Shown here one piece after another: positions 5,788-16,818 of a stretch of DNA of 64,000 bases. Made by a program: the position numbers and the translations under genes. How positions within the stretch are numbered: the first letter of the stretch is position 1; each line of letters opens with the position of its first letter. Source of the stretch: Myxococcus dinghuensis (GTDB taxonomy: Bacteria > Myxococcota > Myxococcia > Myxococcales > Myxococcaceae); NCBI RefSeq assembly GCF_024198235.1, contig NZ_JAKCFB010000039.1, forward strand, positions 1 to 64,000, in the 5' to 3' direction. A model generated the notes under the pieces. It made no database searches. It had not been told where the DNA came from and worked only from the letters and a program-made list of their open reading frames with translations.

Positions 5788-7183
<1,396 letters not shown>

Positions 7184-7194
<11 letters not shown>

Positions 7195-8527
7195 GCGCCA
7201 CCTCGCGCTCCCGCACGGGGGCCAGCGACTCCGAGGGCGGCTCACGGGGCAGCAGCAACTCCGCCACACACCCGCCGCGCTCGGCGTTGCGCAGCGTCAC
7301 CTCCCCCCCGTGCTGACGGGCCAACGCGCGGGCCACGGTGAGCCCCAGCCCGGAGCCCCGCGCCTTCGACGTCACCCCCGCCTCGAACACCCGAGCCCCC
7401 AGCTCCGGAGAAATCCCCGCGCCCGAGTCGCGGATGGACACCCGCACCTCGCCCAGGCTGTTCGCGTCGACCTCCACCTCGACGAGGCCCTCGCGGGGGC
7501 TGGCATCGATGGCGTTGAGCAGCAGGTTCATCAACACCTGCTTCACCTTCCGTGGGTCGCACCGCGCAAGCACCGGCAGCTCTCCCACGCGGACCAGCCG
7601 GACGACGTGCTCGGCGGCGACGCCCTCGTGGAGCACCAGCGCCTGATCACACAGCGCCCCGATGTCCACCTCGCTGATGGACAGCGGGACCAGGGGACGC
7701 GAGAAGTTGAGGAACTCCTCCAGGATGCCCTGCATGCGCGTCACCTCGGACTGGAGGACCTCCAGCCGCTCCGTGGGCTGGGCCCTCCCCGTCTCCCGCG
7801 CCATCAACTGCGAGAGCCCCTTCACGGTGGCCAGGGGGTTCTTCAGCTCGTGGGCGATCTCCGCCGACAGCGCCTCCAGCGTCCGCGCGTGGACGCGATG
7901 GGTGGCCAGCAGCTCGTCGCGCTGCGTGAAGACATCGGTGAGCATGTCATCGAAGGTACCGCGGATCGCCGCGCCGACGACGTTCGCCGCGAGGACCAGG
8001 AGCGGCATGGTGATGGCCACGGCGATGAGCATCTCCCGGGGCGGCTCGCCCAGGAACGACAGGTGCAGGTTCGGAATCCAGCCGCACAGATGGGTCGCCG
8101 ACAACAGCGACAACAACACGAGCTCCTTCACGATGAGGAGGTTGCGCTGGCGCGCGGGGAGCACGGCCGCGCCGACGAAGGCCAACGGCAGGAGGAGCGG
8201 CAGCAACGGACTGGCGAGCCCCCCCGTTCCCAGCGTCAGGCTCTGCTCGAGGAGGATGCCCACCCCCAGGTTGAACGGCACGCTGCGCGAGGTGAAGCCG
8301 TGGCGCTTGAACCGCTTGAGCTCGATGAAGAAGAACTTCAGCGCGATGAAGACCTGCGCCACCATCCAGTAGTAGCGCCACCGGGCCCCATCCGCGAGCG
8401 TGGCCCCCGCGACCGCCGCCATCAACACCAGCCCGCCATAGGCCCGCAGCCGCACCATGCGACCGAAGACCCGGCCGATGTGCTTCATCTGGATGTCGTT
8501 GAAGCTGCGGCGCGCGCGTGCGTCCAT
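7184..8527 (-). CDS. Membrane-bound sensor histidine kinase (HisKA-HATPase)
   Basis: Partner kinase of the overlapping NtrC-like regulator. The 447-residue protein has about six hydrophobic helices in residues 30-190 with no sizeable periplasmic sensor domain, so it probably senses a membrane-linked signal. The transmitter follows: H-box SAEIAHELKNPLA with H226, N-box NLLLNAIDAS, G1 DSGAGI and G2 GSGLGL. This N-box/H-box style matches NtrB/AtoS-like kinases that pair with sigma-54 activators. The start at 8527 (MDARARRSF) has GAGGA upstream and lies 23 bp after the oxidoreductase stop codon. An upstream in-frame extension would run across that gene and is rejected. Confidence 0.92.
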
Positions 8528-9249: not shown

Positions 9250-10448
9250 GGCTGACCTCCCGGCTCCACCGACGTCACGACGCCATCCATCCCCGTCGAC
9301 AGCACCGGGTGCTGCTGCGCCGTCTCCCACGACAACTCCGGCCACCACTTGGCGTGGAGGTCCGCGGAGGTCGGCTCGAAGCTCTCTCCCGGCCGGGGCA
9401 ACACCAGGCGCACGGAGGCGTCCCGCGCGGCGGCGACCGTGCGTTCACCCGGCTCGGTCCAGCCGTGGTACGCGAGTCCGAACAAGGCCCAGTGGACGGG
9501 AAGCATCACCTTCCCCCGTAGCATCTGGTGTGCCAGCACGGCCTGCTCCGGTCCGATGTGCCAGTCCGGCCAGGCCCGGTGGTACTGGCCGGTTTCGATC
9601 ATCGTCAGGTCGAAGGGCCCGAACCGCTCGCCGATGTCCCGCATCGCGGGGAACAGGCCCGTGTCGCCGGAGTAGTACACGCGGTGGGTGGGGCCCACGA
9701 GGGCATAGCCCGCCCAGAGCGTGGCGTCCTTGTCGAACAGGAACCTTCCGGACGCATGCCGCGCGGGCGTGGCCACGACCTCCAAGCCCCCCACCCGCGT
9801 GCGCTCCCACCAGTCGAGCTCCACGATGCGCTCCGGAGGAATCCCCCAGGACTCGAGGTGGGCGCCGATCCCCAGCGGGACGATGAAGGTCGTCTTCCAG
9901 TCCTTCATCGCCACCAGTGTCCCGTGGTCCAGGTGGTCATAGTGGTCATGGGAGATGACCACGGCGTCGATGGCGGGCAGGTCCCGCAAGGCGACGGGCA
10001 CGGGGAACCAGCGGCGCGGCCCCACCCAGGTGAAGGGCGACACACGCTCGCTCCACACCGGGTCCGTGAGGATGCGGTGGCCATCCAGCTCCACGAGCAT
10101 CGTGGAGTGCCCCAGCCACGTGACGCGCAACCCCGTGGACGGCGGCGTGTCGAACCGCTTCGGGTCGATGGGCTCCACCGCGAGCGGTTGCTCGGGGCTC
10201 GTGTGCGGGCTCGCCCGCGCCATGCCCGCGAACATGTCCCACACGTGGTTCACCAACGGCTGGGGGTTGTGGAAGGAGCCGTCCTTCCACTGGGGCGAGC
10301 GCTCCATGCGCTCCCTCCGGGCGCCCTGGGCCTTCTTGCCGAAGGCGGTGTAGCCGTCCGCGAGGGCGAAGAGCACGCCCAGCACCACCACTCCGCCCAG
10401 CGCCAGCGCGCTCCGGCGCACCACGCGCCGCCAACCCGTCGTCTTCAT
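9246..10448 (-). CDS. Membrane-anchored metallo-beta-lactamase-fold hydrolase (NAPE-PLD-like)
   Basis: The 400-residue protein has a single N-terminal anchor (about 13-30, ALALGGVVVLGVLFALA) and then a metallo-beta-lactamase fold. The metal ligands are visible: TWLGHSTMLVE, ISHDHYDHLDH (HxHxDH), ATPARHASGR, YSGDTG and the late PVHWALF. The LGHS motif and overall layout resemble the NAPE-PLD/UlaG-like branch that hydrolyses phosphodiesters, including phospholipids. The protein therefore probably works on the periplasmic face. The start at 10448 overlaps the tetR stop codon (ATGA), so it is coupled to the repressor gene. The exact substrate is not inferable. Confidence 0.86.
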   Translation of the reverse strand: MKTTGWRRVVRRSALALGGVVVLGVLFALADGYTAFGKKAQGARRERMERSPQWKDGSFHNPQPLVNHVWDMFAGMARASPHTSPEQPLAVEPIDPKRFDTPPSTGLRVTWLGHSTMLVELDGHRILTDPVWSERVSPFTWVGPRRWFPVPVALRDLPAIDAVVISHDHYDHLDHGTLVAMKDWKTTFIVPLGIGAHLESWGIPPERIVELDWWERTRVGGLEVVATPARHASGRFLFDKDATLWAGYALVGPTHRVYYSGDTGLFPAMRDIGERFGPFDLTMIETGQYHRAWPDWHIGPEQAVLAHQMLRGKVMLPVHWALFGLAYHGWTEPGERTVAAARDASVRLVLPRPGESFEPTSADLHAKWWPELSWETAQQHPVLSTGMDGVVTSVEPGGQP

Positions 10449-11047
10449 CGGGATGCTCCCAGGGGCATGCAGAGGGCGCGAACCGCGACCCCCATCCCCT
10501 CCTTGAAGGCCTCGCGCGACGCGGAGGCATACTTCAGCCCCCGGGCCGTCGCGTTCAGCGTGTCCGCGAGCTGTCTCGCGCTCAGTCCCACGGGTTTGTA
10601 GGCCGCCACCAATCCCGAGGCGCGGATCGCCTTCGTCACCGCGTCCAGGAACTGCGCCTCGTGACGGGGCACCAGGTCCTTCAGGGCACCGCCCGCAGCC
10701 TCGCCCAGGTCGGACGCGTCCGCGCCCATCGTGCCGGCGAACCGCCCCACCCACGCGTCGAAGGCCCCCGACAGCCGGGCCTCCAACGGGAGGGACTCGT
10801 CCCCCAGACACGCCTCCACCTGCCGCGCGGAGGTCTCCAGCACGTGCTCGAGCGTCTCCCGGAAGAGGGCCTCCTTCGTCGCGAAGTGCAGGTACAGCCC
10901 CTGCCGCGAGACGTCGGCCGCGCGAGCGACCTCGTCCATCGAGGCCTTCCGGAAGCCGAAGCGGAGGAACACGGTGATCGCCGCGTCCAACAGCCGCCGG
11001 CGACGCGCGTCCTCCACCGGCTTCGCGATGTTCTTCGGATCCACCAT
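10445..11047 (-). CDS. TetR-family transcriptional repressor
   Basis: The 200-residue protein carries a TetR_N helix-turn-helix at about residues 15-60 (MDEVARAADVSRQGLYLHF), then an all-helical ligand-binding domain that I cannot assign to a ligand class. The start at 11047 (MVDPKN) is chosen because the alternative ATG at 11065 lies inside the palindrome at 11058-11085. No good Shine-Dalgarno precedes 11047. A promoter in the palindrome would give a very short or no leader, so leaderless translation is possible. As first gene of the stack, with the hydrolase overlapping its stop codon, it probably autoregulates the whole five-gene unit. Confidence 0.9.
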   Translation of the reverse strand: MVDPKNIAKPVEDARRRRLLDAAITVFLRFGFRKASMDEVARAADVSRQGLYLHFATKEALFRETLEHVLETSARQVEACLGDESLPLEARLSGAFDAWVGRFAGTMGADASDLGEAAGGALKDLVPRHEAQFLDAVTKAIRASGLVAAYKPVGLSARQLADTLNATARGLKYASASREAFKEGMGVAVRALCMPLGASR

Positions 11048-11057
11048 CCTGGACAGA

Positions 11058-11085
11058 TTTGACAAGTTGGACCCAACTTGTCAAA
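11058..11085. promoter_or_regulatory. Perfect palindrome at the tetR start: probable TetR operator
   Basis: Perfect 13-bp arms TTTGACAAGTTGG / CCAACTTGTCAAA separated by AC. Each arm also contains a -35-like TTGACA. Read on the minus strand, the promoter would start transcription close to the tetR ATG at 11047. Length and symmetry suit a TetR dimer pair, so autorepression of the stack is the simplest reading. Confidence 0.8.
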
Positions 11086-11111
11086 CCCATCCACGACACA
11101 CCAACCGGCGT

Positions 11112-11345
11112 TCAGCGAGGCGCCGACCGACCGCCCTCGAGGACCCGCAGCGTGGCGCGGCGGCCCTGGCGGCCGGGCTGGCTGGCGGCGGCCTGCTTTC
11201 CCCGCTTCGCGGTCGCACGAGGAGCCGCCCTCGCGGGAGCACGTCCCTTGGCGACCTTGCGCGCGCCCGTCATGCCCTCCGCGGCACCCCGCTTCTTCGG
11301 CAGGGGGAGCGGCAGGCAGAAGAACAGGTACATGTCGAACAGCAT
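11112..11345 (-). CDS. Small basic Lys/Ala/Arg-rich hypothetical protein
   Basis: The 77-residue reading frame starts MLFDMYLFFCLPLPLPKK and continues as a Lys/Ala/Arg/Pro-rich tail (ARKVAKGRAPARAAPRATAK), reminiscent of histone-H1-like or other nucleic-acid-binding tails. Third codon positions are almost all G or C, as in neighbouring real genes, and an AAGAGG sequence sits 4 nt before the ATG. It lies on the minus strand just upstream of the tetR palindrome. There is no recognisable domain and the hydrophobic N-terminus is odd for a DNA-binding protein. It could be a non-coding frame that happens to be open. Confidence 0.45.
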   Translation of the reverse strand: MLFDMYLFFCLPLPLPKKRGAAEGMTGARKVAKGRAPARAAPRATAKRGKQAAASQPGRQGRRATLRVLEGGRSAPR

Positions 11346-11606
11346 GGGGCCTCTTCGCCTTCTCGGGTGCGCACGGGAGTGTGCGCGGGTTTCATGAGCA
11401 ATGACGGTGCCACCCAGCGACCGCCCGCCCACCTCCCAATCCAGGACGACCAGGAGGCGAGCGGAAGGTGCCACGGCGTGACAGGCGCCATCGTGAAGAA
11501 GCATGAAGATGCCATGGTGAAAGGCCCTCCTCCGCTCGCGAGGAAGGCCATCGCCACGAGCGTGCGCACCTTTCCCTCGGAACGCCTCGTCCCACCGCCC
11601 GCGGGT

Positions 11607-11639
11607 GCCGGGCTTCCGGCGGGGTGCCGGATTTCCGGC
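11607..11639. promoter_or_regulatory. Tandem dyads, candidate enhancer sites for a sigma-54 activator
   Basis: Two near-identical dyads, GCCGG-GCTT-CCGGC (11607-11620) and GCCGG-ATTT-CCGGC (11626-11639), each preceded by GGGT. They are spaced 19 bp centre to centre, about two helical turns. They lie about 90 and 110 bp upstream of the start expected from the -24/-12 element at 11697, the usual distance for activator binding. The rest of the gene-free stretch 11346-11765 shows no other clear element. Confidence 0.6.
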
Positions 11640-11696
11640 AGGGTCGTCGCGTGGGCCTCCGACACCTCCCACGCGCCCACCACCTCCCGGTCGTCA

Positions 11697-11711
11697 TGGC
11701 ATGAGCCTTGC
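11697..11711 (+). promoter_or_regulatory. Sigma-54 (-24/-12) promoter of the exporter operon
   Basis: TGGCATGAGCCTTGC matches the consensus TGGCACG-N4-TTGC with GG (11698-11699) and GC (11710-11711) at the required spacing; the only mismatch is T for C at one position of the -24 box. Predicted transcription start near 11723 leaves a 43-nt leader with GAGGAGAG before the ATG at 11766. Confidence 0.7.
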
Positions 11712-11765
11712 CAACCCGGCAGGCGACACCGTGGGGGCGTGCCCGCGGCCTCGAGGAGAGACTCC

Positions 11766-12830
11766 ATGCGACGTGCCGTCGTCCTGTTCGTGGTGCTGGT
11801 GGTGGCACTCGCCACTCTGCTGGGCGTGCGCATCCTCAAGGAGCGTCGTGCCGCGGAGGGTCCCCCCGGGGGCTCGGGGGTGGTGGAGGGCACGGCGGTG
11901 GACGTGCGCTCGCGCCTCAACGCCCGCGTGCTGACGCGCCCCGTGGAGGAAGGCGCGCGGGTCCAGAAGGATGCGGTCCTCGTCACCCTGGACTGCACGG
12001 AGCCGGAGGCCGGGCTGAGCGAGGCCACCGCCCGACTGGCCGTGGCCCAGGCCCAGGCCGCGTCCGCCCAGGCGCAGGCGGTGGCGGCGGGACGCACCAG
12101 CGAGGCGGTGGCGGCCCAGGCCGAGGGCAGCGCTTCGCAGATCGCCTCCCTCGCGGACCAGCACGGCCTCGCGCAGCGCCAGGCGGATCGCCTCAAGCAG
12201 ATGGGCGAGGCGACGACGGAGGCCTCGCTGGACCAGGCGCGGGCCCAGGCGGAATCCCTGGCGCAGCAACTGGCCGCGGCGCGCCACGCGAGCACCGCGG
12301 CCAGTCGTCAGGCGCGGGCGGCCACGGAGCAGCAGAACGCCAGCCTCCAGGCCGCGGAGGCCGCGCTGCGGGGCATCCAGGCCGCCGAGGCCGCCGTCCG
12401 TCGCGCCCAGGTCTCCGTGTCGGAGTGTGAGCTGCGCGCGCCCATCTCCGGCACCGTGGAGACGCTCGCGCTGGAGGTCGGGGAACTGGCGTTGCCCGGC
12501 GGCGTGGTGGCGCGGCTGGTGGACACGCATCGCCCCAAGGCCACCTTCTATCTGCCCAACGCGGAGCTGGCGGCGGCGAAGCCCGGCCAGGCCGCCACGG
12601 TGCGCGCGGACGCCTATCCCGACCGCACCTTCCAGGCCCGCGTCGTCACCGTGGCGCGCGAGGCGGCCTTCACGCCGCGCAACGTGCAGACGCGCAGCGA
12701 CAGGGACCGGCTCGTCTATCCCGTGGAGGTCCGCATCGACGCGCCCGAGGACGTCCTGCTCCCCGGCATGCCCGTGGACATCACCCTGGGGCCCGTGAAC
12801 GAACCCGCGGTGGCGGAGCAGCACCCATGA
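11766..12830 (+). CDS. HlyD/EmrA-type membrane-fusion (periplasmic adaptor) protein
   Basis: Adaptor that links an inner-membrane ABC exporter to the outer membrane. The 354-residue protein has one N-terminal membrane anchor (about 4-20), a biotinyl-lipoyl half-motif (GTAVDVRSRLNARVLTRPVE), and a long Ala/Gln-rich helical hairpin (about residues 75-215, many AQAQA segments). The second lipoyl half and beta-barrel follow (CELRAPISGTVETLALEVGE; PNAELAAAKPGQAATV). This is the YbhG/HlyD_D23 layout. The start at 11766 has GAGGAGAG 5 nt upstream. Its stop overlaps the ATG of the first ATPase gene (ATGA). No TolC-type outer-membrane gene is in the window. Confidence 0.9.
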   Translation: MRRAVVLFVVLVVALATLLGVRILKERRAAEGPPGGSGVVEGTAVDVRSRLNARVLTRPVEEGARVQKDAVLVTLDCTEPEAGLSEATARLAVAQAQAASAQAQAVAAGRTSEAVAAQAEGSASQIASLADQHGLAQRQADRLKQMGEATTEASLDQARAQAESLAQQLAAARHASTAASRQARAATEQQNASLQAAEAALRGIQAAEAAVRRAQVSVSECELRAPISGTVETLALEVGELALPGGVVARLVDTHRPKATFYLPNAELAAAKPGQAATVRADAYPDRTFQARVVTVAREAAFTPRNVQTRSDRDRLVYPVEVRIDAPEDVLLPGMPVDITLGPVNEPAVAEQHP

Positions 12831-13588
12831 GCGCCGAGGCTGCCGTGGACGTGGAGCTGAAGGACGTGCGCCGCGCGTTCGGCGCCACCCAGGCCCTGCG
12901 CGGCGTGTCGCTGGCCGTCCACGCGGGCGAGGTCTACGGGTTGGTGGGGCCGGATGGTGCGGGGAAGACCACCAGCATCCGGTTGATGGCGGGGCTGCTC
13001 CTGCCGGACGCGGGTCAGGTGCGGACCCTGTCGGAGGATCCCGCGGCACCGCGCTCGCACGTGCGCGAGTCACTGGGGCTCGTCCCGCAGCGGAACACGC
13101 TCTACGGGGACCTGAGCGTCGAGGAGAACCTGCGCTTCTTCGCCAGGCTCTTCGCATTGTCGAAGGAGGACTTCGCGGAGCGGCGCGCGCGCCTGCTCGA
13201 CATCACCCGGCTGGGGCGCTTCACGGACCGACGCGCGGACGCGCTGTCGGGCGGCATGTACAAGAAGCTGGCGCTGGCGTGTGCCCTGCTCCACCGCCCC
13301 CGCGTGCTGCTGCTGGACGAGCCCACCAACGGCGTGGACCCCGTGAGCCGCCGCGAGCTGTGGGAGCTGCTCTACGGCCTCGTCCACGAGGGCATGACGC
13401 TCATCGTCTCCACGCCGTACATGGACGAGGCGGCGAGGTGTCACCGCGTGGGCCTGCTCTACGCGGGAGAGCTCATCGCGCAGGGCGCGCCCCGGGAGCT
13501 GACGCGGGCGCACGGGGTCGCGGCCTCCGACTTCGAGGCGGTGTTCCTCGCGCTGGTGGAGAAGCACACGGGCGGGAGGGCCGCATGA
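12827..13588 (+). CDS. ABC exporter ATPase 1 (CcmA/YbhF-type)
   Basis: The 253-residue ATP-binding subunit has Walker A GPDGAGKTT (41-49), a Q-loop in VPQRNTLYGDLS, signature LSGGMYKK, Walker B VLLLDEPT and the switch region beginning STPYMDEA, where the usual switch His is not evident after the D-loop. GPDGAGKTT rather than GPNG is typical of the N-terminal half of YbhF-like fused ATPases. Here that half is encoded by its own gene and the second half by the next gene. It overlaps both neighbours by 4 bp and is the second gene of the operon. It probably pairs with ATPase 2 as an asymmetric dimer. Confidence 0.9.
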   Translation: MSAEAAVDVELKDVRRAFGATQALRGVSLAVHAGEVYGLVGPDGAGKTTSIRLMAGLLLPDAGQVRTLSEDPAAPRSHVRESLGLVPQRNTLYGDLSVEENLRFFARLFALSKEDFAERRARLLDITRLGRFTDRRADALSGGMYKKLALACALLHRPRVLLLDEPTNGVDPVSRRELWELLYGLVHEGMTLIVSTPYMDEAARCHRVGLLYAGELIAQGAPRELTRAHGVAASDFEAVFLALVEKHTGGRAA

Positions 13589-14523
13589 GCCCGGCCATCG
13601 AGGTGCGCCACCTGACCCGCCGCTTCGGCGACTTCGTCGCCGTGGACGACGTGAGCTTCGACGTCGGCGTGGGGGAGATCTTCGGCTACCTGGGGGCCAA
13701 CGGCGCGGGCAAGTCGACCACCATCCGGATGCTGTGCGGCCTGCTGACCCCGTCCAGCGGCGGGGCCCGCGTCGCCGGCTTCGACGTGGGGAGCGAACCC
13801 GAGCGGGTGAAGGCCGGCATCGGGTACATGTCCCAGAAGTTCTCGCTGTACCTGGACCTGAGCGTCCGCGCGAACCTGGAGTTCTTCGCCTCCGCCTACG
13901 GGGCCCAGGGACGGACGCTCAGCACGCGCATCGCGGAGATGGTGGAGCGCATGGGCCTGGGCGCCGTCGAGGACGCGGTGACGGGCTCGCTCCCCGGGGG
14001 ACTCCAGCAGCGCGTGGCGCTCGCGAGCGCCGTGCTGCACCGCCCCCGCATCGTGTTCCTCGACGAACCCACCGCGGGGGTCGACCCGGTCCAACGGCGC
14101 ACGTTCTGGGCGCTGATTCGCGACCTCGCCGCGCAGGGCACCACCGTCTTCGTCACCACCCACTACATGGACGAAGCCGAGAACTGCGCCCGCATCGGCA
14201 TCATGGTGGACGGGAAGCTGGTGGCGCTCGACACACCCACGGGCCTGAAGAGGACCCATGCGCCCGGGCGCGTGCTCGAGGTGCGGGGCCCCCGACTCTC
14301 CGTCGCCCTGGACGCCTTGAAGGGCACCCCCGGCGTCCTCGACGTGAGCCGCTTCGGCGCGGGCGCGACGGTGCGGGTGGACCCGGAGCGCATGGCCCCC
14401 GAGGCGCTGGCCGCGTGGCTGCGCGCGCGCGGTGTGGACCCGCTGGAGATGGAGGAGTCCGCGCCGACGCTGGACGACGTCTTCCTGGCGCTCACCGCCC
14501 GGGCCCAAAGGGGGGACGACTGA
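13585..14523 (+). CDS. ABC exporter ATPase 2
   Basis: The 312-residue ATPase has Walker A GANGAGKST (37-45), a Q-loop at YMSQKFSLY, a degenerate signature SLPGGLQQR (Pro in place of Ser in LSGGQ), Walker B IVFLDEPT and switch His in VTTHYMDEAE. About 75 extra C-terminal residues form the small regulatory domain common in drug-export ATPases (ending TLDDVFLALTARAQ). It overlaps ATPase 1 by 4 bp and the next permease by 1 bp. The complementary defects (no clear switch His in ATPase 1, altered signature here) suggest one fully active and one degenerate ATP site. Confidence 0.9.
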   Translation: MSPAIEVRHLTRRFGDFVAVDDVSFDVGVGEIFGYLGANGAGKSTTIRMLCGLLTPSSGGARVAGFDVGSEPERVKAGIGYMSQKFSLYLDLSVRANLEFFASAYGAQGRTLSTRIAEMVERMGLGAVEDAVTGSLPGGLQQRVALASAVLHRPRIVFLDEPTAGVDPVQRRTFWALIRDLAAQGTTVFVTTHYMDEAENCARIGIMVDGKLVALDTPTGLKRTHAPGRVLEVRGPRLSVALDALKGTPGVLDVSRFGAGATVRVDPERMAPEALAAWLRARGVDPLEMEESAPTLDDVFLALTARAQRGDD

Positions 14524-15665
14524 TGACGACGCCCACACGACGCGGGTCGGCCACCCTCGGACGCATCCTCGCGATGGCGGGCAAGGAGGTGCTGCACATC
14601 CGCCGCGACATCCGCACGCTCTACCTCGCCCTGGCGATGCCCGTGCTGATGCTGGTGCTGTTCGGCTTCGGCATCAGCTTCGACGTGGACCACCTGGAGC
14701 TGGCCGTGGTGGACCAGGACCGCACGGACCTGTCCCGAGCGCTGGTGCGCCAGGTCACCGCGTCCGGTGAGTTCGTCGCCATCGAGGATGGCACCTCCCC
14801 GGAGGCCGCGCTCCAGCAGCTCCGACGGGGCCACGCCGCCGGAGTGCTGCTCCTCCCACACGGCTTCGCCGAGGACGTGCAGCGTGGCACGGCGCAGGTC
14901 CAGCTCCTGGTGGATGGCGCCGACGGGAACACCGCCACCCAGGCGCTCGCCAAGGCCCAGGCGCTGGTGGAGGTGGCGAGCCGCCAGCTCCTCGGCGCTG
15001 GCGCGCCGGTGCAAGCCCCGCCGCTCGAGGTCCGGGTCCGGACGCTGTTCAACCCGGATGCGCGGTCCGCGATGTTCCTGGTACCGGGACTCGCGGCGTA
15101 CCTGCTGGCCATCGTCGCGGTCATCATCACCGCGCTGACGGTGGCCCGCGAGTGGGAGCGGGGCTCCATGGAGCAGCTCTTCGCCACGCCGGTGGGGCGC
15201 CTCGAAATCGTGGTGGGGAAGCTGCTGCCCTATCTCGGCATCGGCGTGCTCCAGGTGCTGCTCGTGCTGACGGTCGGCGCGTGGGTGTTCGACGTGCCGG
15301 TGCGCGGCAGCCTCGTGGCGCTGGGACTGGGCGCCCTGCTCTTCCTGGTGGGCATGCTCGGGCAGGGCCTGCTCATCTCGGTGGTGACCCGCAACCAGAT
15401 GGTGGCGACCCAGGTGGCGACCATCTCCTCGGTGCTGCCGTCGATGCTGCTGTCCGGCTTCATCTTCCCCATCGAGAACCTGCCCCTCCCGCTCAAGGTC
15501 ATCAGCACGGTGATTCCAGCGCGGTACTTCGTGTCGACGCTGCGCGGAGTGCTGCTGCGCGGCAACGGCCTGGACGTGCTCTGGCCCCAGTTGCTGGCGC
15601 TGGCGCTCTTCGCGGTGTTCGTCCTCGTGCTGGCCACGCGGCGCTTCCAACGGCGACTGGACTGA
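14523..15665 (+). CDS. ABC-2-type export permease 1 (YbhS-like)
   Basis: The 380-residue membrane subunit has a TM helix after about residue 35 (LYLALAMPVLMLVLFGFGISF), then a large periplasmic domain containing the family-typical VVDQDRTDLSR. A C-terminal cluster of five helices (about residues 180-375) follows, with the EWERGSMEQLFATPVGRLEI coupling segment (E-R-G-T/S-motif) and the ending IPARYFVSTLRGVLLRGN. This is the ABC2_membrane_3 architecture of YbhS/YbhR. TGATG overlap with ATPase 2 couples translation. With permease 2 it should form the heterodimeric channel. Confidence 0.9.
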   Translation: MTTPTRRGSATLGRILAMAGKEVLHIRRDIRTLYLALAMPVLMLVLFGFGISFDVDHLELAVVDQDRTDLSRALVRQVTASGEFVAIEDGTSPEAALQQLRRGHAAGVLLLPHGFAEDVQRGTAQVQLLVDGADGNTATQALAKAQALVEVASRQLLGAGAPVQAPPLEVRVRTLFNPDARSAMFLVPGLAAYLLAIVAVIITALTVAREWERGSMEQLFATPVGRLEIVVGKLLPYLGIGVLQVLLVLTVGAWVFDVPVRGSLVALGLGALLFLVGMLGQGLLISVVTRNQMVATQVATISSVLPSMLLSGFIFPIENLPLPLKVISTVIPARYFVSTLRGVLLRGNGLDVLWPQLLALALFAVFVLVLATRRFQRRLD

Positions 15666-15681: not shown

Positions 15682-16818
15682 ATGCATCCGCTCCTGGTGC
15701 AGTACCGCGCGGTGGTCGTGAAGGAGGTCCGGCAGACGGTGAGGGATCGCCGGGTCATGGCGCTGCTCACCATCGCGCCGCTGGTCCAGCTCTTCGTCCT
15801 GGGCTTCGCGGTGAACTTCGACGTGCGCCATGTCCCCACCGTGGTCGTGGACCAGGACCGGACGGTGGAGAGCCGCGACTACGCCCGAGCGCAGCTCGCC
15901 GGGGACACCCTGGACCTGAAGGCCGAGCTGCGGGACGAGCACGCGGCGGAGGAGGCCCTGGAAGATGGCCGGGCGTCGGTGGCGCTCGTCCTTCCTCGGG
16001 ACTTCCAGAAGGACGTGCTCCGGGGCCAGGGCGCGCAGGTCCAGGCCCTCGTGGATGGCTCGGACCCGACACGCTCGGGCGTCGCCTCCGACGCGGTGGC
16101 GCGCTTCGCGGCCCTGCGCGCGACCCAGCTCCTCCAGGCGCAGGCCCGGGCCCAGGGCACGTCCGTGCCGAGGGCCCCCGTGGCCCTGGTCCCCCGCGTG
16201 CTCTACAACCCGGAGCTGTCCACGTCCGTCTACGTGGTGCCCGGCATCGCCGCGATGCTCCTGCTCATCGTCACCACGGTCATCATGGCCATGGGGCTGT
16301 CACGCGAGCGTGAGACGGGGACGCTCGAGCAGCTCCAGGTGACACCGCTGCGCCCCGGCATCCTGATGGCGGGCAAGGTGACTCCGTTCCTCGTCATCGG
16401 CCTGGTGGACGTGGGGCTGGCGCTGAGCGTGGGCGCGTGGGTGTTCGGCGTCCCCCTGCGGGGCAGCCTCGTCCTGGTCGCCGTGGCCACCCTCTTCTAT
16501 CTGCTGTCCACGTTGGGCGTGGGCCTGCTCATCGCGACCGTGAGCCGGACCCAGCAACAGGCCTTCGTGGGCGGCTTCCTGTTCGTCCTCCCGGCCGTCC
16601 TCCTGTCGGGGGTGATGAGCCCGATCCGCGCGATGCCGGACTGGCTCGCGGTCGTCACGTACGTGAACCCGGTGCGCTACTACGTCGAAGTGCTCCGGGG
16701 CTCGTTGCTCAAGGACGCCGGACTGCCGGACCTGTGGCGCCAGCTCGTCATGCTGGCCGCCTTCGGCACCGTGGTCATGTCGGTGGCCGCGCGCCGCTTC
16801 CACAAGACCTCCGCCTGA
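15682..16818 (+). CDS. ABC-2-type export permease 2 (YbhR-like)
   Basis: The 378-residue paralogue of permease 1 has the same order: an N-terminal helix (MALLTIAPLVQLFVLGFAVNF), a periplasmic domain with VVDQDRTVESRD, and five C-terminal helices with the cytoplasmic coupling element RERETGTLEQLQVTPLRP and the NPVRYYVEVLRGSLLKD end motif. It starts 17 bp after permease 1 and completes the five-gene exporter operon (adaptor, two ATPases, two permeases), equivalent to E. coli ybhGFSR with split ATPase halves. The exporter probably moves hydrophobic drugs or a metabolite; the substrate cannot be inferred. Confidence 0.9.
   Translation: MHPLLVQYRAVVVKEVRQTVRDRRVMALLTIAPLVQLFVLGFAVNFDVRHVPTVVVDQDRTVESRDYARAQLAGDTLDLKAELRDEHAAEEALEDGRASVALVLPRDFQKDVLRGQGAQVQALVDGSDPTRSGVASDAVARFAALRATQLLQAQARAQGTSVPRAPVALVPRVLYNPELSTSVYVVPGIAAMLLLIVTTVIMAMGLSRERETGTLEQLQVTPLRPGILMAGKVTPFLVIGLVDVGLALSVGAWVFGVPLRGSLVLVAVATLFYLLSTLGVGLLIATVSRTQQQAFVGGFLFVLPAVLLSGVMSPIRAMPDWLAVVTYVNPVRYYVEVLRGSLLKDAGLPDLWRQLVMLAAFGTVVMSVAARRFHKTSA

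Follow-up and report, generated by a model that had tools for sequence, protein, structure and literature searches.

Organization of the exporter locus

What switches on the exporter operon that begins at the ATG at position 11766, and is its activator encoded in the same locus? The window analyzed here is a stretch of 64,000 nucleotides from the 10.4 Mb genome of Myxococcus dinghuensis, and all positions refer to it. The initial annotation had proposed a sigma-54 promoter with two enhancer-like dyads upstream of this operon and had named a neighboring NtrC-type regulator as the candidate activator. The operon comprises five genes:

11766-12830, plus strand: HlyD-family membrane fusion protein (nearest model PRK03598, below cut-off)
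12827-13588, plus strand: ABC ATPase 1 (nearest NCBIfam model RbbA, below cut-off)
13585-14523, plus strand: ABC ATPase 2 (nearest model RbbA, below cut-off)
14523-15665, plus strand: ABC-2-type permease 1 (nearest model RbbA, below cut-off)
15682-16818, plus strand: ABC-2-type permease 2 (nearest model RbbA, below cut-off)

The minus strand carries a small open reading frame (ORF), TetR, MBL-fold and NAD-binding genes, a histidine kinase, a response regulator and an S15 peptidase. The locus had been described as a drug-export operon; the exporter genes are there, while the word "drug" goes beyond the models matched, which are those of RbbA and HlyD secretion and are all matched below cut-off. 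The cut-off of the RbbA equivalog NF033858 is not passed by the single genes, which score 221-281 bits against 1050. The nearest models liken the system to RbbA-type ABC-2 exporters, from which it differs in that its ATPases and permeases are separate genes, and we take it to be linked to YbhGFSR, which is under TetR control, and YhiI-RbbA-YhhJ of E. coli.

A conserved sigma-54 site upstream of the exporter

11697-11711, plus strand: predicted sigma-54 -24/-12 promoter of the exporter operon, TGGCATGAGCCTTGC (core kept across orthologues; predicted start ~11723)

The GG of this site occupies 11698-11699 and the GC 11710-11711, exactly the -24/-12 spacing that had been claimed for it. Compared with the sigma-54 consensus TGGCACG-N4-TTGC(T/A), as given in the available portions of two papers (PMC7910581, PMC9765219), the site has two departures (C to T, and the final W to C). 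The genome has one match to rpoN (PF04552) above cut-off, and a scan of 11000-11900 for sigma-70-type promoters found nothing. In M. xanthus, cells reportedly do not survive the loss of sigma-54 (PMC12316311). Exact copies of TGGCA-N6-TTGC number two in the 64-kb window, against 0.41 expected for the window as a whole (two or more were reached in 7 of 100 shuffles); both lie in the intergenic region 11346-11765, pointing away from each other. Loose sigma-54 matches with up to two mismatches are rarer in the window than chance predicts (118 versus 160).

A family search of 96 genomes, with a cut-off of at least 70% identity, placed an orthologue of the HlyD gene in 24 genomes of four genera, the window's own included. 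The alignments comprise 23 upstream regions; G056, whose contig stops after 189 upstream bases, was left out. The core GGCA-N6-TTGC is present at all 24 exporter loci, in the 23 by alignment and in G056 by pattern. The site spans 15 gap-free columns, of which eight do not vary across the 23 regions, exactly those of GGCA and TTGC; by comparison, invariant columns number 7 of 47 between the dyads and the site and 7 of 46 between the site and the ATG. This invariant core in orthologues supports the claim of a sigma-54 promoter for the exporter. The all-or-none switching that had been read from it does not follow, as sigma-54 control means activator dependence. A 699-residue open frame spans the region, and we considered coding constraint as a cause of the conservation; judged by eye it is unlikely, because many gaps in the alignment have lengths that are not divisible by three.

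A second, divergent site and a small conserved ORF

The second exact TGGCA-N6-TTGC of the window had not been reported in the initial annotation. The features on this side are as follows:

11398-11412, minus strand: predicted divergent sigma-54 -24/-12 site, TGGCACCGTCATTGC, facing the small ORF and the two-component genes (start predicted at ~11386)
11112-11345, minus strand: small conserved ORF of 77 amino acids, the first gene after the divergent site
11058-11085, no strand assigned: perfect 28-bp palindrome, TTTGACAAGTTGG-N2-CCAACTTGTCAAA, at the start of the TetR gene, a probable TetR operator
10445-11065, minus strand: TetR-family regulator, between the small ORF and the kinase, found in 7 of the 23 loci

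Read from 11412 to 11398, the divergent site shows a single departure (G to C) from the published consensus in the form quoted above. Its TGGCA-N6-TTGC is kept in 23/23 exporter loci and in seven of seven relatives that lack the exporter, and 11 of its 15 columns are invariant in the 23 aligned regions. Between this site and the first dyad, the same alignment contains only four gap-free columns, none of them invariant. The presence of a second, divergent sigma-54 site implies that the two-component genes are probably autoregulated.

The small ORF encodes a hydrophobic start, a basic middle of variable length and an LRVLEGGR motif near a mostly conserved end; no NCBIfam model matches it. Such an ORF was picked in all 30 loci examined by N-terminal patterns seen in the loci earlier, and the C-terminal motif is missing from those of G014 and G015. 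Differences by codon position amount to 11869/10180/12470 over all counted columns, to 1953/1120/1523 in the first 15 columns and to 2185/1730/3070 in the last 14. The case that this ORF is conserved is made by its presence in 30/30 loci and its conserved ends, not by the codon-position counts.

In at least six compact loci (G014, G015 and G040-G043) the small ORF is the only gene that fits between divergent site and kinase; in these relatives, at the level of sequence, predicted back-to-back sigma-54 promoters would serve the two-component genes and an effector. Between divergent site and kinase, the window's lineage has the TetR, MBL and NAD-binding genes as well as the probable TetR operator. 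With three interposed genes and a palindrome in the way, the reach of the divergent promoter to the kinase is only putative in this lineage.

Tandem dyads between the two sites

11604-11620, no strand assigned: predicted enhancer dyad 1, GGTGCCGGGCTTCCGGC (outer part variable among relatives)
11623-11639, no strand assigned: predicted enhancer dyad 2, GGTGCCGGATTTCCGGC (GGTGYCGG-N4-CCGRC in the 23 aligned loci; the pattern also occurs in G056)
11659-11663, no strand assigned: possible third half-site, CCGAC (CCGRC kept in 23/23)

The two 14-bp dyad cores, GCCGGGCTTCCGGC at 11607-11620 and GCCGGATTTCCGGC at 11626-11639, lie 19 bp apart where they had been described. Measured from the dyad centers, the predicted start lies approximately 109 and 90 bp downstream, and the -24 element of the exporter-side site approximately 84 and 65 bp downstream. 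Activator sites typically lie 80-150 bp upstream of -12/-24 regions, according to the portion of the source available (PMC7910581); dyad 1 falls inside this range and dyad 2 somewhat nearer.

The rarity of the dyads was considered as evidence and rejected, as neither the dyad alone nor the loose tandem pattern is rarer than its controls. GCCGG-N4-CCGGC with one mismatch allowed occurs 22 times in the 64-kb window, where 30 are expected; GGTGCCGG-N2-TTCCGGC with two mismatches occurs twice against 0.84 expected, a number reached in 18 of 100 shuffles. Genome-wide, the longer dyad has eight matches and its reversed control nine, and the loose tandem pair is found at one place in 10.4 Mb compared with two forward and two reverse control matches. 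When the tandem pattern was made stricter, as a 33-bp motif modelled on this site itself, it matched only here, and its control matched nowhere. Since such dyads are common by chance in this GC-rich genome, their weight comes only from conservation.

This conservation is seen in the orthologues, where the dyads are kept upstream of the exporter-side site; 14 of their 35 columns are invariant in the 23 aligned regions, dyad 1 keeping only part of its columns. We built a composite pattern of dyad and sigma-54 site from these loci; 28 of the 96 genomes have a single match to it each, and its reversed control matches in none of the 96. These 28 genomes consist of the 24 exporter loci and four genomes without the exporter. 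Together with their recurrence beside some distant homologues of the regulatory pair (below), this supports the reading of the dyads as candidate tandem enhancers.

The kinase-regulator pair stays with the dyads

5788-7194, minus strand: NtrC-type response regulator/enhancer-binding protein (receiver, AAA+ with GAFTGA, Fis-type HTH)
7184-8527, minus strand: membrane histidine kinase (start inferred from relatives)

The regulator matches PF00072, PF00158 and PF02954 above their cut-offs. GAFTGA lies at its residues 222-227 and is invariant in three aligned regulators, and its HTH is near-invariant in dyad-bearing loci. From the overlap of the two genes we infer that the kinase pairs with this regulator. 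A TGG-x-x-SP stretch in the kinase, invariant in 17 sequences, resembles the GGXXNPF given as the ubiquinone motif of RegB in the accessible part of the source, a likeness that is only a hint (PMC8191878). The pair adjoins the exporter in 23/23 loci with context; these same loci differ in their S15 peptidase, NAD-binding, MBL and TetR genes.

Nine same-genus genomes lack a HlyD orthologue in the 96-genome search. Two of them (G062 and G074) also lack a close kinase homologue, and the other seven keep kinase and regulator. In all seven the dyad, the divergent site, the small ORF and the kinase-regulator pair are retained. The exporter-side site is intact in four of the seven, has one base changed in its -24 element in G077, and was searched for in G059 and G066 and not found. 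This is the pattern expected if the exporter-side site serves the exporter and the remainder serves the two-component genes, and it makes available a natural deletion series, in which the exporter has been lost and its promoter is decaying. These seven were among 20 kinase-bearing regions fetched; in the other 13, which are distant, a sigma-54 threshold of 8 of 11 returned many weak sites, most of them probably due to chance.

Some distant loci carry other exporters

A wider search for kinase homologues, covering the best 80 of 83 relatives, gave at least 79 loci, and in 73 of those listed the regulator lies next to the kinase. Among these 73, all five exporter genes are divergently placed in 29 and some of them in 18; nine have too little sequence, and 17 have no exporter genes despite at least 4 kb of room. 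Three exporter-less distant loci were examined, those of G006 and G012 and a paralogous locus of G068, and all carry MacB/FtsX-type permeases on the plus strand.

Sixty distant loci from these best 80 of 83 relatives had kinase identity below 50% over a match of at least 300 residues and enough sequence for scanning. We defined the tandem motif as YCGG-N4-CCGR pairs 17-26 bp apart and scanned 900 nt. Such pairs occur in 15/60 distant loci, against 0.14 by shuffling, and in 7/12 close loci, against 0.0. Six of the 15 had been looked at beforehand and nine were not used in choosing the motif; the 15 are not independent, as six are Corallococcus. One of the nine, L159, is apparently the G012 locus, with FtsX-type cargo. 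Strong sigma-54 sites are present on the plus side in 13/60 distant loci (0.2 by shuffling) and on the minus side in 6/60 (0.45 by shuffling). No strong plus-side site lies within 700 nt in 47/60, and no tandem pair within 900 nt in 45/60. At one of the loci without a site, L124, an outer-membrane efflux gene fills the scanned space.

In six Corallococcus loci and one Myxococcaceae MAG, the second dyad of a tandem pair is CGGAAATCCGAACA without variation and lies upstream of TGGCAYG-N4-GTGCT. Taken together, the distant loci suggest that the type of dyad follows the regulator and not the class of exporter.

Two further observations were made in this set. The outer membrane efflux protein gene of L124 (7576-8895) lies directly upstream of the kinase on the same strand; with it, the three-part exporter would be complete and would sit beside its sensor. 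L111 carries a myxobacterial locus in a database record named "Comamonas sp. KCTC 72670", which is probably mislabelled.

Which regulator acts at the control region

We propose that 11346-11765 is a divergent sigma-54 control region in which the local two-component activator, bound at the dyads, drives both promoters; from the comparative sequence evidence we put the probability of this reading at about 0.85. The main competing explanation accepts both sigma-54 promoters and holds that a different enhancer-binding protein binds the dyads, the neighboring regulator acting elsewhere. There are grounds for taking it seriously, as the Myxococcota are described as a phylum with many enhancer-binding proteins in the part of the source available (PMC12316311), and Nla28 controls efflux genes in M. 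xanthus, as its paper states in the text accessible (PMC9765219). It is nevertheless unlikely in view of the unbroken synteny of the pair with the exporter, the company that this dyad type keeps with regulator homologues in distant genomes, where G012 has MacB/FtsX-type permeases instead, and the joint persistence of regulator and dyad in 7/7 genomes after exporter loss. The synteny and the dyads beside distant homologues likewise favor the earlier choice of the 5788-7194 regulator as the probable activator.

TetR-family regulators commonly control exporters, and the TetR-family gene at 10445-11065 lies 0.7 kb from the exporter, so that the exporter might be governed mainly by derepression. 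Half-sites related to the palindrome occur in the six other TetR-bearing loci, with both halves in five of the six. When 900 bp were scanned in the seven loci with up to two mismatches allowed, half-sites were found only at the TetR start and none near the exporter promoter, and the gene itself is restricted to less than a third of the exporter loci (7/23). Distribution and operator position speak against TetR as the main control, which we regard as very improbable. The suggestion that 11697-11713 is a repressor operator and no promoter, prompted by a CA after the site that completes the inverted repeat TGGCA-N7-TGCCA in the window and several relatives, deserves almost no credence, since at other loci the right arm appears as TTGCGA, TTGCTG or TTGCCG and the left arm as CGGCA, and the second arm is not kept whereas GGCA-N6-TTGC is.

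Two other elements were noted in the intergenic region. The sequence GTGAAGAAGCATGAAG at 11493-11508 contains TGAAGA twice, 10 bp apart. All 17 same-genus exporter loci whose upstream sequence is long enough keep it, G079 with a single base changed; it takes the form GTGAAAAARGATGAAG in 7/7 exporter-less relatives and has no match in the six loci of other genera. At 11464-11474 lies the AAGGTGCCAC element, which on the other strand resembles a sigma-54 site with the wrong spacing; CAAGGTGCCA is exact in 16/17 same-genus loci, and the window has G for its first C.

Proposed mechanism

In the divergent control region that we favor, the kinase (7184-8527) would phosphorylate the regulator (5788-7194), which would then bind the tandem GGTGYCGG-N4-CCGRC dyads at 11604-11639 and open sigma-54 RNA polymerase at both back-to-back promoters. 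The promoter at 11697-11711 would express the HlyD-ABC-ABC-permease-permease exporter. The promoter at 11412-11398 would express the small ORF and then, by read-through, the kinase and regulator, which it would reach directly in compact relatives. Such read-through would produce a self-reinforcing switch through autoregulation, and most likely the pump and its sensor are switched on together. Because the N-terminal half of the kinase looks hydrophobic by eye, our guess is that its signal is membrane-borne.

A bolder and rather doubtful extension would make the pair, along with its tandem YCGG-N4-CCGR enhancers, a regulatory cassette found throughout the Myxococcota, into which varied ABC exporters, RbbA-type or MacB/FtsX-type, are plugged, with the kinase sensing a lipid-soluble ligand or the membrane quinone pool and the fast-evolving small protein modulating the kinase. 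ZraP, reported to repress ZraSR, would be a model for the last of these roles. Apart from this extension, the sequence comparison as it stands links predicted sigma-54 control to ABC exporters across the Myxococcota.

Comparison with known systems

No earlier description of this module appears among the literature matches listed, which comprise titles and abstracts with few subscription journals covered. Two known systems resemble it in part. In Salmonella and Escherichia coli, ZraR acts on divergent sigma-54 promoters for its own operon zraSR and for the effector gene zraP, as set out in the portion of the source available (PMC4987338). The likeness lies in a single response regulator that serves its own operon and an effector from divergent sigma-54 promoters; the ZraP effector is a zinc-binding periplasmic chaperone, whereas here it is an ABC exporter, and the two-component genes come after a small ORF. 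The regulator at 5788-7194 scores below the ZraR equivalog cut-off (369.5 versus 760 bits), and the comparison with ZraSR-ZraP concerns the way of working only.

The Nla28 regulon of M. xanthus includes the RND/ABC efflux locus MXAN7147 and the Cus efflux locus MXAN989, as described in the accessible text of the paper (PMC9765219). It shares with the present locus sigma-54-type efflux promoters, an enhancer-binding protein, tandem half-sites and a myxobacterial host. Nla28 recognizes the half-site CT(C/G)CG(C/G)AG in a dispersed regulon, according to the same text, whereas here the dyad is different, there is one composite site per genome, and the regulator is linked to its own site. As the layout of ZraSR-ZraP and the control of efflux by Nla28 are already known, what is new here is the combination of own activator, enhancer and cargo, which makes the locus a concrete and testable regulon with candidates for activator, binding site, two promoters and cargo in one place.
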